A DNA stretch of 64,000 nt from Fibrobacterota bacterium. Its GTDB lineage: Bacteria; Fibrobacterota; Fibrobacteria; UBA11236. Positions 9,409-25,475 of this stretch are shown one piece after another. The stretch covers positions 124,001 through 188,000 of the forward strand of contig JAEKLQ010000022.1 of the NCBI GenBank assembly GCA_019509785.1, read 5' to 3'. A program made the translations under genes and the position numbers. The notes beneath the pieces are model-generated. The model worked only from the letters and a program-made list of their open reading frames with translations, had not been told where the DNA came from and made no database searches. Position 1 is the stretch's first letter, and each line of letters begins with the position of its first letter.

Positions 9409-10875
9409 CTAAGGCGTGACTTCCACCACGAATTTCCCTTCGGCCAATCCCACCGGTATCTCCCCGCGGGCCACGCTTTCCAGCAAGGCGTTGGGCTCGT
9501 ACTCGAAGGGGATCTCCCGGGGAAGGCCCGAACGCAAAGCGATCAATTTGGCCTCCTCGAAATCGAGGACGTTCTTCCAATAAGGATGATCGATGGGGTG
9601 GGCGCGCATATAAGCGGCGAAGGTCTCCGTCTCTTGGATGGGGAATTGGCCGGGCATGCACGAGCGGCAATAATCCGCCAACATTTCCTCAACCCAGGCC
9701 GCGCCTTTCAGGCGCAACAAGAATTGCATGGCCAGCCCCATCAAGTCGGTGAGGTTCCCCCAGCGGAAACTGTTGGCGATCATGCGGTAGGTGGCGAGGC
9801 CGCGATCGCCGCGGAGCTTCGGGAATACCGGGCCCGCTTCCCGTTCCTGGGCGGTCCAGAGGCCGAGGGCCTTTTCCCATGCGGCAGGGGTGATGCTTTC
9901 GGCGGAATCCAAGGGGATGAGGTCGGCGCGCGAGGCAATCTCCGCTCGAGGACGCGAACCTTCGGCGCGGGCCTTATAGCGCCCGTCCCAAAGGCCGCGA
10001 AGGACTTGCAGTTGTTGCGCCAGAAGATCCATGCCGGCGCGCGGGACGAAGTAGGGTACGACTTCCAGGGTCAATGCCCGCACCTTGCGGAGCCGCGGAA
10101 GGACGCGTTCGGCCAGGGCCAAGACCTCGTCCTGCAAGGTGCCGTTATGGGCGTCCAGCCAGACGCCTTCGTCGAGACGGGCCCCGGCCAGGTGGACTTC
10201 GATCACGCGATCAAGCGGGATGGCGTCCAGGTATTCCTCCACCGGTTGGCGGCCGTTCCTTTCATTGACCCAGAGGTTGGTCAGATCCAGGAGGATGCCG
10301 CAATCCAGGCCATCGGACACCCGGGCCATGAACTCGCCGTCGGACAAGGTCCCGCAGGCGGACCGCAGGTAATTGACCTGGGTCTCCAGGGCGAACGGGG
10401 CAGGTAACCCGCGCGATACCTGCCGGATGCTCGCGACGGCGGTTTCGGCCCCCGCCGGGGTCTGCAGGGGCGGTAGCATCATGCCGGCGAAATAACGCTC
10501 GCCATTCTCCCGCTGGTGCAGAAAGCTCAAATGCTCGCTGATCCACGCCGGCTTCAGCCGAGCGCAGACTTCGTGGAAATGCCCGGTCATCCCCGGGGGC
10601 GGTAGCACCGTCCCGGCCGCTCCGCCGCCCACGCCATGGACGATTACCGGCTTGCCGCTTTGCTCCAGGAAAGCGAATGCCTCCTCCCGCATGGCGTAGG
10701 GCCGCGCGTCCCCGGCGCGATAGTCCCACCACATTTGCGGTTCGATCTCGATGATGTCGACCAGTCCCGTGCCCGGCGCGAGCAAGGGCTCGACGCCGGG
10801 CACCCACACGAGTCCCACGCCCGATGGCGCGCGTTCCGGCGAGCCGGAATGCGTTTCGGTTCCATTGCCGGCCAT
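9409..10875 (-). CDS. DUF692 / MNIO multinuclear non-haem iron oxidase with C-terminal partner-like domain
   Basis: A 488-residue protein. Residues about 20-295 are a DUF692 TIM barrel, the fold of peptide-modifying MNIO enzymes (MbnB, TglH, BufB). Likely metal ligands or conserved sites: H80 (VIVHGVGGG), H115 (ISEHLSFL), E164 (FALETQVNYL), D197/N200 (LLDLTNLWVN), H228 (EVHLAGA), D241/H243 (LDAHNGT) and E271. The remaining 190 residues are an extension with WxxxNSFRWGNLTDL-like and YCRSCMPGQFP segments. It vaguely resembles the separate partner subunits (DUF2063/MbnC-type) of such systems, here fused. The ATG at 10875 is preceded by GGAGGAGG at proper spacing. It lies 43 bases after a 49-residue one-Cys peptide gene, so the pair looks like a modification enzyme and its precursor. 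Confidence 0.85.
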   Translation of the reverse strand: MAGNGTETHSGSPERAPSGVGLVWVPGVEPLLAPGTGLVDIIEIEPQMWWDYRAGDARPYAMREEAFAFLEQSGKPVIVHGVGGGAAGTVLPPPGMTGHFHEVCARLKPAWISEHLSFLHQRENGERYFAGMMLPPLQTPAGAETAVASIRQVSRGLPAPFALETQVNYLRSACGTLSDGEFMARVSDGLDCGILLDLTNLWVNERNGRQPVEEYLDAIPLDRVIEVHLAGARLDEGVWLDAHNGTLQDEVLALAERVLPRLRKVRALTLEVVPYFVPRAGMDLLAQQLQVLRGLWDGRYKARAEGSRPRAEIASRADLIPLDSAESITPAAWEKALGLWTAQEREAGPVFPKLRGDRGLATYRMIANSFRWGNLTDLMGLAMQFLLRLKGAAWVEEMLADYCRSCMPGQFPIQETETFAAYMRAHPIDHPYWKNVLDFEEAKLIALRSGLPREIPFEYEPNALLESVARGEIPVGLAEGKFVVEVTP

Positions 10876-10918
10876 TGGTTCCTCCTCCTTCAAGCTGGGT
10901 TCCCGCGAGGCGATCCGG

Positions 10919-11068
10919 TCAGACGGATCCGCTCATGTCCTTGAAGCGTACGTCCACCGCCGAGGTGCAGGGCGCATGCCGCATGGACGCGATGATCTTG
11001 TCCGCGATGTTGTGCTTCTTATTGAGATCGAAGCCCAGGCCCGCGGGGATGGTGACTTTCTGGCTCAT
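10919..11068 (-). CDS. 49-residue peptide, candidate precursor for the MNIO enzyme
   Basis: Encoded by an ATG with a textbook ribosome site (AGGAGT six bases upstream), so small-gene status is well supported. It begins MSQKVTIPAGLGFDLNKK and has one cysteine, Cys34, in RHAPCTSAVDVRFKD near the C-terminus, with D39 and D44 after it. No signal peptide or membrane segment. Known MNIO enzymes oxidise Cys, Asn or Asp near the C-terminus of short precursors, so Cys34 is the natural target. I do not recognise the family. Alternatively it could be a small stress protein unrelated to the enzyme. Confidence 0.75.
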   Translation of the reverse strand: MSQKVTIPAGLGFDLNKKHNIADKIIASMRHAPCTSAVDVRFKDMSGSV

Positions 11069-11194
11069 GGATGTACTCCTTTGCGAGCGGCCCGGCATTG
11101 GGCCGTTCGGAGGTATAGACACCATAGCCGGAAGATCGGGTACATCGAAATTTCCGATGCCCGGGAATTTTTCCGGAAGGGAGCGGGAGGGGAA

Positions 11195-11491
11195 TCAGCC
11201 GAGGAGGCCGGCGTCGGGTTCGCGATTACGGAAACGAAGGCGCGAGGCTTCCATGAGCTTGGCCTTCTCGACTTCGCGATCACGGGGAGGCGCGGAGGTT
11301 ACCAGGGAGCGGATCAGCTCCCGGGCCGATGCGTGGATTTGATCCACGGCCAGGTCGAAGGCGGCCTGATTGGCTTGCGAGGGCCTGGCGAAACCGCTCA
11401 GCTTGCGGACGAATTGCACGGCCGAAGCGCGGATTTCCTCTTCGGTGGCCGGCGGGGCGAAATTGAACAGGGTACGGATGTTGCGGCACAT
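11195..11491 (-). CDS. DUF2277 domain-containing protein
   Basis: A 98-residue protein matching DUF2277 over its whole length: MCRNIRTLFNFAPPATEEEI at the start (family hallmark), ASAVQFVRKLSGFARPSQAN, and ARELIRSLVTSAPPRDREVE. The frame stays open upstream, but the hallmark begins at the ATG at 11491. Function unknown; members occur widely as single small genes. It ends 126 bases before the peptide gene on the same strand, so it may or may not share its transcript. It is divergent from the DUF4440 gene. Confidence 0.88.
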   Translation of the reverse strand: MCRNIRTLFNFAPPATEEEIRASAVQFVRKLSGFARPSQANQAAFDLAVDQIHASARELIRSLVTSAPPRDREVEKAKLMEASRLRFRNREPDAGLLG

Positions 11492-23612: not shown

Positions 23613-25475
23613 CTAATGTAGTTCGGGCGGTAACATGCGTGGTAACACTGGCGCAGGAGGCGACGCGTGCGCGGCCGCCGTATCCTGGCCCGAGGCGCGG
23701 GTAATCCAGGCCAAGGCTTGCGCGCGAATGGCGGCCGTATCCTGGTTCAGATCCACCGGGGACGGGCCGCCCAGGAGGCGGGCCAATCCCTGGTCGGCGT
23801 AATAGCGCACCAAGGGACGCGGATCGGTCAGCACCTCGGCCATGTCCCCGGCCCAATCCTTACGGCCAAGCGTTCCAGCCAGGTAGGCGGCCACCGCCTG
23901 CTCATGGGGCTTCCCCAGGCGCAAGGTCGCTTGCAGGGCATTGGCGTCGAGATCGCCGTACAGGCCGCGCAGGCGAGCGCGATCGTAGCGATGCCCCCAC
24001 CAAGCCTCCAGGGTGTCCACCAGGGACGCCACGCTGCGATCGCCATGACAGAGCGCGCATTCCAAGGGCCGATCGCCTTCCACCTTGGCGGGTTCATCGG
24101 GCGAGCCGATGCGATGGTAGCGGGAAAGCCGAAGGTCCAGGGACATGTTCTTGCGGGGCATATGGCAGTTCATGCATAGGCCGCCCGGCCCTTGCGGATC
24201 GTGGCGGGAGTGGGCGCGCAAGGCGGCCGGTTCGCGGAAGGCGCCATGGCATTTCAGGCAGATCGCGTTTCCGGCGGGGCCTTCCAGGCGCGCGAATTCC
24301 CCGCCGCGATCATGCGAATGCGGATCGTGGCAGGCATTGCAGGCGATGCGGCAATTCCCCAACAACATATCGCGGGCTTCCCCGGAATTGATATGCGCTC
24401 CCCCGGCCGGGAGATCCGAACGCCGCTTGCCTTCCCAAGTCCAAGGATATCCCGAGTACAGCACCTGGTGGCAACGCGCGCATGCCCGGATGACCTGCTC
24501 GTCATGGGCCTTGGAGGGATCGATGCCGGCGCGTTGGAGTTGCGCCTGGGGTCGCAGGAATGGGGCGACCGGCGCGAAGGAAGGCCGCACGGCGGGATCG
24601 CGGATATGTTCGGCGCAGCCGCCATGGCAGGACTCGCATCCGATCCCCAGTTCGACCAGGTCGCCCTCGCCGAAATGATCGCGGGTGGCCGCGATGGTCT
24701 TGCGTACCCACGCCGAAGTCGAAGCCACAGGCGCGGGAAGCGATGCATGCAGGTATCGGATCTCCGATTCCAAGGCGGCGCGCAGGCCCGCGGAATCGGA
24801 GACGGCCGGCGCCGCGCGCTTCCCGGGGGGCAGGGAAAGGTCGAGGATCTGGCCCTGATAGCCCGTGCCTCCCGGCCCGGCCCAGGCGCCCAGCGCGGTC
24901 GAAAGGTAAGGCACGGTATTGTGGCAGAAGATGCAGGTGGCGCGCCATTCGGGCCCCGCCTTGAGTCCCGGGCGTTCGGGGACCATCACCGAATAGCCCT
25001 TATACCGGAAGGCGCCCGTCGCGTACACGTAGGAAACCGGCAGGATCTGTTCGGTGATCGAATCGCCGTCGGCTTCCACGCCGGCGAAGTCCTCGCGATG
25101 ATGGCCTCCGATCACCTTGGTGACCCGGTATACGCGTTCAGGCTTGCCCGGAGCGCCGATGCGCATCCAACGATGGCCCTCGCGCATCTCCAGGGAAACG
25201 GAACCATCCTTGAAGCGGAAAGAGCGATCGAAAGGGGCCAGGATGCGCGCGGTGTCCGCCCGGCGCGTCATGTTATGCATCGGCGCGGACATGTAGGCGG
25301 CGTACTCGGCGGGATGGCAGGAGGCGCAGGCGGCCGAGCCCACGTAATCGGCGCGCGTGACATTGCTCCGTACGATCCGTTCCCGCGCCGCGGGCGGTGG
25401 CACGGGCCGGATGCAGCCCGCGATCAGGAACAAGCCGAGCCAGGCGGAGCGCGATGGGGATCCGAATGGGATCAT
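23613..25475 (-). CDS. Eight-haem c-type cytochrome lipoprotein
   Basis: A 620-residue exported protein. Signal sequence ends in lipobox LIAGC (about residue 21). Eight CxxCH haem sites are present: CASCH, CIFCH, CESCH, CARCH, CNACH, CLKCH, CMNCH and CALCH. Additional His residues (for example HNTVPY, GAHINSG, DPHSHD, HSRHDPQG) can provide axial ligands. The last 130 residues lack haems and look like short helical repeats (RLGKPHEQAVAAYLAGTLG, DPRPLVRYYADQGLARLLG), HEAT-like. Spacing of the haem sites resembles octahaem/multihaem periplasmic reductases, but no catalytic Lys-type haem (CxxCK) is seen. Probably periplasmic electron transfer. It ends 8 bases before the methyltransferase ATG. Confidence 0.9.
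   Translation of the reverse strand: MIPFGSPSRSAWLGLFLIAGCIRPVPPPAARERIVRSNVTRADYVGSAACASCHPAEYAAYMSAPMHNMTRRADTARILAPFDRSFRFKDGSVSLEMREGHRWMRIGAPGKPERVYRVTKVIGGHHREDFAGVEADGDSITEQILPVSYVYATGAFRYKGYSVMVPERPGLKAGPEWRATCIFCHNTVPYLSTALGAWAGPGGTGYQGQILDLSLPPGKRAAPAVSDSAGLRAALESEIRYLHASLPAPVASTSAWVRKTIAATRDHFGEGDLVELGIGCESCHGGCAEHIRDPAVRPSFAPVAPFLRPQAQLQRAGIDPSKAHDEQVIRACARCHQVLYSGYPWTWEGKRRSDLPAGGAHINSGEARDMLLGNCRIACNACHDPHSHDRGGEFARLEGPAGNAICLKCHGAFREPAALRAHSRHDPQGPGGLCMNCHMPRKNMSLDLRLSRYHRIGSPDEPAKVEGDRPLECALCHGDRSVASLVDTLEAWWGHRYDRARLRGLYGDLDANALQATLRLGKPHEQAVAAYLAGTLGRKDWAGDMAEVLTDPRPLVRYYADQGLARLLGGPSPVDLNQDTAAIRAQALAWITRASGQDTAAAHASPPAPVLPRMLPPELH

Follow-up and report, generated by a model that had tools for sequence, protein, structure and literature searches.

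The 64,000-nucleotide stretch of Fibrobacterota DNA analysed here (the window) encodes a 49-residue protein with a single cysteine and, directly downstream, an MNIO enzyme whose C-terminal part looks like a fused partner protein. A homologous small protein is encoded directly 5' of all ten intact enzymes of this architecture that we found, and we consider it rather likely that the fused enzyme oxidises Cys34 of this signal-less, probably cytosolic protein, the two genes together forming a post-translational modification system. The features of the locus are the following:

9409..10875, minus strand: gene of the MNIO-partner fusion enzyme P0001, 488 amino acids (PF05114 match and fold)
9412..9888, minus strand: C-terminal partner-like domain, residues ~330-488 (HHalign and AlphaFold2 model; weak DUF2063 signal)
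9988..10875, minus strand: MNIO (MbnB_TglH_ChrH) TIM-barrel domain, residues 1-296 (Pfam, fold matches and conservation)
10881..10890, minus strand: ribosome-binding site of the enzyme gene, AAGGAGGAGG (from sequence)
10919..11068, minus strand: peptide gene P0002, candidate substrate, 49 amino acids, MSQKVTIPAGLGFDLNKKHNIADKIIASMRHAPCTSAVDVRFKDMSGSV, with Cys34 as its single cysteine
10967..10969, minus strand: codon of Cys34, the candidate modified residue (position from the translation; residue kept in 11 of 12 copies)
11076..11082, minus strand: ribosome-binding site of the peptide gene, AAAGGAG, 7 nt before the ATG (from sequence)

The gene pair and its fused enzyme

The peptide gene lies upstream of the enzyme gene on the same strand, with a gap of 43 nt, and both genes carry strong Shine-Dalgarno sites. 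A sister species (L015/L004, labelled Fibrobacteres) has the same pair in the same order. Across 48 aligned residues the two peptides share 42 (88%), with eight nonsynonymous and 21 synonymous changes (dN 0.075; dS 1.59, a value near saturation, drawn from 32 sites and imprecise, which makes the dN/dS of ~0.05 approximate), while the enzymes are 65% identical (dN 0.27, dS 1.10). Approximate as it is, this ratio, together with the homologues described below, excludes a chance open reading frame, and the 49-residue, one-cysteine peptide gene that the preliminary description had placed next to an MNIO gene is thus real. Purifying selection is stronger on the peptide than on the enzyme, an uncommon pattern among RiPP precursors that points to a function of the peptide itself.

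The N-terminal half of the peptide is predicted to form a strand followed by a helix (residues 15-29), the structure model being of low confidence (pLDDT 63) and used no further than this helix; the C-terminal half contains the stretch H31-A-P-C34-T-S36-A-V-D39. By inspection, the peptide has no Sec signal or hydrophobic N-terminus. Neither the Pfam nor the NCBIfam library contains a family for it, and no related solved structure was found.

The enzyme belongs to the MNIO superfamily both by profile (PF05114, MbnB_TglH_ChrH, the MNIO or DUF692 family; E = 2e-36 over residues 65-268, 126 bits against a cut-off of 25) and by its MNIO TIM-barrel fold; no curated NCBIfam equivalog matched it at its own cut-off. 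In a Foldseek search with the whole AlphaFold2 model (pLDDT 88, pTM 0.86) the best matches were TglHI, 3BWW and MbnB, all on the catalytic half (E values of 1e-15 to 1e-9 for TglH and MbnB). Thirteen putative metal-site or core residues (E45, H80, E114, H115, E164, N168, D197, N200, N204, H228, D241, H243 and E271) are invariant in all ten intact fused enzymes, and several of these positions align with TglH and 3BWW. The D-x-H pair D241/H243 appears to be the counterpart of D242/H244 in HvfB, which are required for thiooxazole activity (PMC13419390). This pair may be the motif reported as absent from the Asp-hydroxylating MNIOs PesH and PflD (PMC13060819), where it is written 'HxD' and perhaps denotes a different site.

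The preliminary description had seen no partner gene, probably because the partner is fused to the enzyme: the locus indeed has no free gene of this kind. In Xanthomonadaceae and one other genome, however, stand-alone MNIOs are followed by a separate gene whose product is homologous to the last ~160 residues of the window enzyme (HHalign probability 99.3%, E = 2e-20, 131 columns), and this part of the enzyme thus looks like a fused MNIO partner. The AlphaFold2 model of this part comprises a helical bundle (residues 330-449) followed by a short strand-helix-strand (453-486), an arrangement also described for PME-type 2 partners (PMC12452194). Matches to DUF2063 were weak, being confined to the free partner protein and two of nine fused domains (best E values 0.02-0.03; 0.022 among the fused domains), and the free partner protein matched an HvfC model with E = 0.016. 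The C-terminal domain itself gave no significant match to a two-sequence HvfC-type profile, and its sequence retrieved nothing meaningful from the PDB. That fusing enzyme and partner is compatible with function is illustrated by an engineered HvfB-HvfC fusion, which is highly active (PMC13419390).

Upstream of the pair lies a DUF2277 gene, in the window (11195-11491, minus strand) as well as in L015 (6302-6598), where an ankyrin-repeat-like open reading frame lies in between; this synteny is possibly merely inherited. The GNAT gene that follows the pair in the window does not do so in L015, and the flanking open reading frames differ among distant loci. Next to the pair in the window, a Pfam scan of the neighbouring genes showed neither a protease nor an exporter, and none is evident among the listed flanking open reading frames of the relatives, inspected as a listing. 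A second MNIO of the same genome (L001; G000 contig 40, ~23795-24574) is found near proteins rich in CKGxxGCK repeats and resembles an EGKCG/oxazolin-type system.

Distribution of the fused enzymes and their small proteins

A scan of contigs and genome searches with enzyme alignments yielded ten intact fused enzymes with the ~480-residue architecture: two from Fibrobacterota, five from Acidobacteriota (L016/L052, L039, L040, L041 and L070) and three from Xanthomonadaceae (L042, L043 and L044). In a tree calculated without L070, their MNIO domains formed one clade separate from stand-alone MNIOs and from the BufB type (support 100/100). This count leaves out a fused MNIO from Luteimonas (L017/L053), in which the reading frame changes partway and no upstream peptide is detectable, the locus probably being broken, decaying, mis-assembled or mis-sequenced. 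The fused enzymes are rare. Among 168 Fibrobacterota genomes only two encode one, both in the genus of the window; a class-level search gave matches above threshold in six of 299 genomes and a family-level search in nine of 247, stand-alone enzymes included, and among 398 genomes drawn from one phylum only the query genome itself matched. Viral contigs held no relative, and plasmids gave distant matches to the MNIO domain only, none of them covering 80%.

All ten intact fused enzymes are directly preceded by a gene for a homologous small protein, at spacings that range, in the loci measured, from a 1-nt overlap to 43 nt, several pairs overlapping or lying within 16 nt of each other. With a profile built from the peptides of Acidobacteriota and Xanthomonadaceae, the window peptide obtained 24 bits, compared with 6-10 bits for the best of 2000 shuffled sequences. 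The statement that its family was not recognised therefore stands for Pfam and NCBIfam but not for the neighbourhoods of other MNIOs, where its homologues occur. The preliminary description would have been contradicted by an absence of such homologues beside other enzymes of this kind; since they sit 5' of all ten, and 11 of the 12 peptide-domain copies keep Cys34, the opposite was found. Genomes that contain a good match to the peptide were searched by profile, and no significant homologue turned up away from an MNIO.

Members of the family begin with a strand-like segment, which leads to a predicted helix and then to a [C/H]-x-x-C-x-S-[G/A] motif, frequently with an Asp after it, as in LGCAGCHSGFD (L042), LGCPNCFSGAD and LGACPCHSGFD (both in L040), VGHPTCYSGFN (L041) and MRHAPCTSAVD (window). 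Cys34 corresponds to the last Cys of this motif and is replaced by Arg in the one deviating copy. Every one of the 12 copies has Ser36, eight have Asp and one has Asn at residue 39, and the first motif Cys has become His in the pair formed by the window and L015 and, separately, in L041. Two acidobacterial proteins (L039, 6033-6461; L040, 6375-6812; oriented coordinates) contain the peptide domain twice, the first copy having CxxC and the second CxC. Small proteins with comparable motifs (GCTTCGLGG, GCAPCLSGLD and CPTCVSGIE) also precede the stand-alone MNIOs of L046, L045 and L057, which suggests a wider group of signal-less CxxC(S/G)G precursors.

The copy with Arg belongs to L070 (G1615:C234:10621-10860 region), whose upstream peptide, VEERDRHSGWHG, was recognised as a homologue with E = 1e-9 by a profile built without it and has no motif Cys at all. 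Its enzyme is intact, with 13 of 13 checked residues kept, and no second, Cys-bearing copy of the peptide was found in this genome. Either this peptide has decayed or, judging from these sequences, Cys may not be the target in every member, which makes L070 a natural test case for Cys as the target.

Proposed chemistry and alternative readings

In MbnB, HvfB and TglH a mixed-valent diiron site binds the thiolate of the substrate Cys and oxidises it, while a partner holds the peptide (PMC13419390, PMC12452194). By analogy, the fused domain would stand in for MbnC, TglI or HvfC, its helical bundle being possibly DUF2063-like and its end possibly a truncated RRE, and may bind the small protein, presumably through the conserved N-terminal strand and helix of the latter. 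The Cys34 thiolate would then become a ligand of the diiron site in the MNIO domain, and an O2-dependent oxidation at this residue, most likely a four-electron one, would give a group of the oxazolone-thioamide or 5-thiooxazole type; a 5-thiooxazole, as in the HvfA product, absorbs near 302 nm (PMC13419390). The product would probably be the whole modified 49-residue protein in the cytosol instead of an excised, exported small molecule; we regard such a retained protein as likelier because there is no recognisable signal sequence and no adjoining protease or exporter in the window. The finished [C/H]-x-x-C* site might, speculatively, bind a metal, since most relatives have Cys at position -3 and two separate lineages have His there. 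A more far-reaching idea, which we put forward tentatively and think has perhaps one chance in three, is that the fused MNIO-partner enzymes convert the single conserved [C/H]-x-x-C-x-S-G site in a family of cytosolic small proteins, as opposed to excised peptides, into a permanent modified-Cys centre, possibly metal-binding, that is, into a prosthetic group on a stable protein.

Oxidation of Cys34 is favoured over hydroxylation of an Asp mainly because Cys34 is conserved. The peptide could nevertheless be the substrate with another residue as the target, through β-hydroxylation of Asp39 or a change at Ser36, leaving Cys34 for binding or metal ligation. The invariance of Ser36, which the Cys does not match, the Asp (or, once, Asn) at residue 39 and the precedent of PesH and PflD, which hydroxylate Asp (PMC13060819), speak for this possibility, yet it seems unlikely to us: Cys34 is present in 11 of 12 copies whereas Asp or Asn occupies residue 39 in only nine, the enzyme has the D-x-H pair of the Cys-modifying HvfB (with the caveat that the motif lost in PesH and PflD is perhaps another site), and Cys is the target of most known MNIOs (PMC12452194). 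About equally unlikely, in our judgement, is that the small protein serves as an obligatory subunit or regulator of an enzyme acting on something else. Its small size and tight coupling to the enzyme, its conservation above that of the enzyme and the Cys-less homologue that still adjoins an intact enzyme in L070 would all suit such a role. In known MNIO operons, however, the gene 5' of the enzyme is that of the substrate (PMC12452194), the part of a partner already appears to be filled by the fused domain, the locus contains no other candidate substrate, and the double-domain proteins of the two acidobacterial relatives fit a multi-site substrate better.

MNIO enzymes mostly yield RiPPs (PMC12452194), and Cys34 occupies a C-terminal, core-like position, as would be expected if the C-terminal part were released by cleavage and left the cell as a metallophore or antibiotic. 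We hold this to be improbable, given that a protease or exporter neither adjoins the pair in the window nor is evident in the listed flanks of the relatives, that inspection revealed no Sec signal, and that leader and core are equally conserved.

Relation to known systems

The closest published group, compared by description, is adjamnio-7 (reference sequence WP_078758616), which comprises predicted signal-less CxxC precursors near MNIO cluster 7 in Lysobacteraceae (Novilysobacter and others; Antoine et al. 2025, PMC12452194). A small signal-less CxxC protein before an MNIO also describes L047-L051 of this analysis (GCRPCLSGLDRF). The window peptide matches these L047-type peptides at chance level only (6.9 bits, against 11.3 in shuffled sequences); HxxC takes the place of CxxC in the window and L015, whose enzymes fall in the fused clade, and adjamnio-7 is purely predicted.

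Systems of the HvfABC, bufferin and oxazolin type share the enzyme fold, the metal-site residues and the gene order substrate-enzyme(-partner), and the host genome has a locus resembling them in L001. Their precursors, in contrast, carry a Sec signal and several EGKCG-type Cys residues, whereas the window peptide has one Cys and no signal, and their partner is a separate DUF2063-RRE protein. Membership of the bufferin/oxazolin systems (BufABC, HvfABC) was rejected on the enzyme scores (107.5 bits against the BufB cut-off of 310, and 71 against the HvfB cut-off of 360), and membership of the BufB type on the tree, in which the BufB sequences form a separate clade (support 100/100). TglHI (3-thiaglutamate) and MbnBC (methanobactin) provide the nearest solved structures and likewise act on a Cys of a short precursor, but structure alignments give only 21-22% identity to TglH and 15-18% to MbnB, the peptide is a different one and their partners are separate. 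MovX, a known MNIO with a fused RRE, has its partner function at the C-terminus as well; the window domain differs in being ~160 residues long, mostly helical and homologous to stand-alone partner genes, and the substrates are unrelated as far as known.

The preliminary view of the locus as a candidate new system thus holds in part. It overlaps with the adjamnio-7 predictions (PMC12452194), and the MNIO superfamily, the fused RRE of MovX and the active engineered HvfB-HvfC fusion are already known; the natural MNIO-partner fusion clade with this peptide family, its occurrence in three phyla and the variant with HxxC appear to be undescribed in the open-licence literature. More than 14,000 MNIOs are known and a handful have been characterised (PMC13060819). 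The strong conservation along the entire peptide, together with the exchange of His for Cys in the motif, prompts one to ask if MNIOs equip functional proteins with permanent sites, which has so far been suggested for MNIOs only on the basis of long precursors (PMC12452194). Most characterised MNIOs have a separate protein as their partner, whereas enzyme and partner would here be naturally fused, and this minimal case of two genes and one target Cys could allow substrate, site and chemistry to be resolved by a single co-expression experiment.
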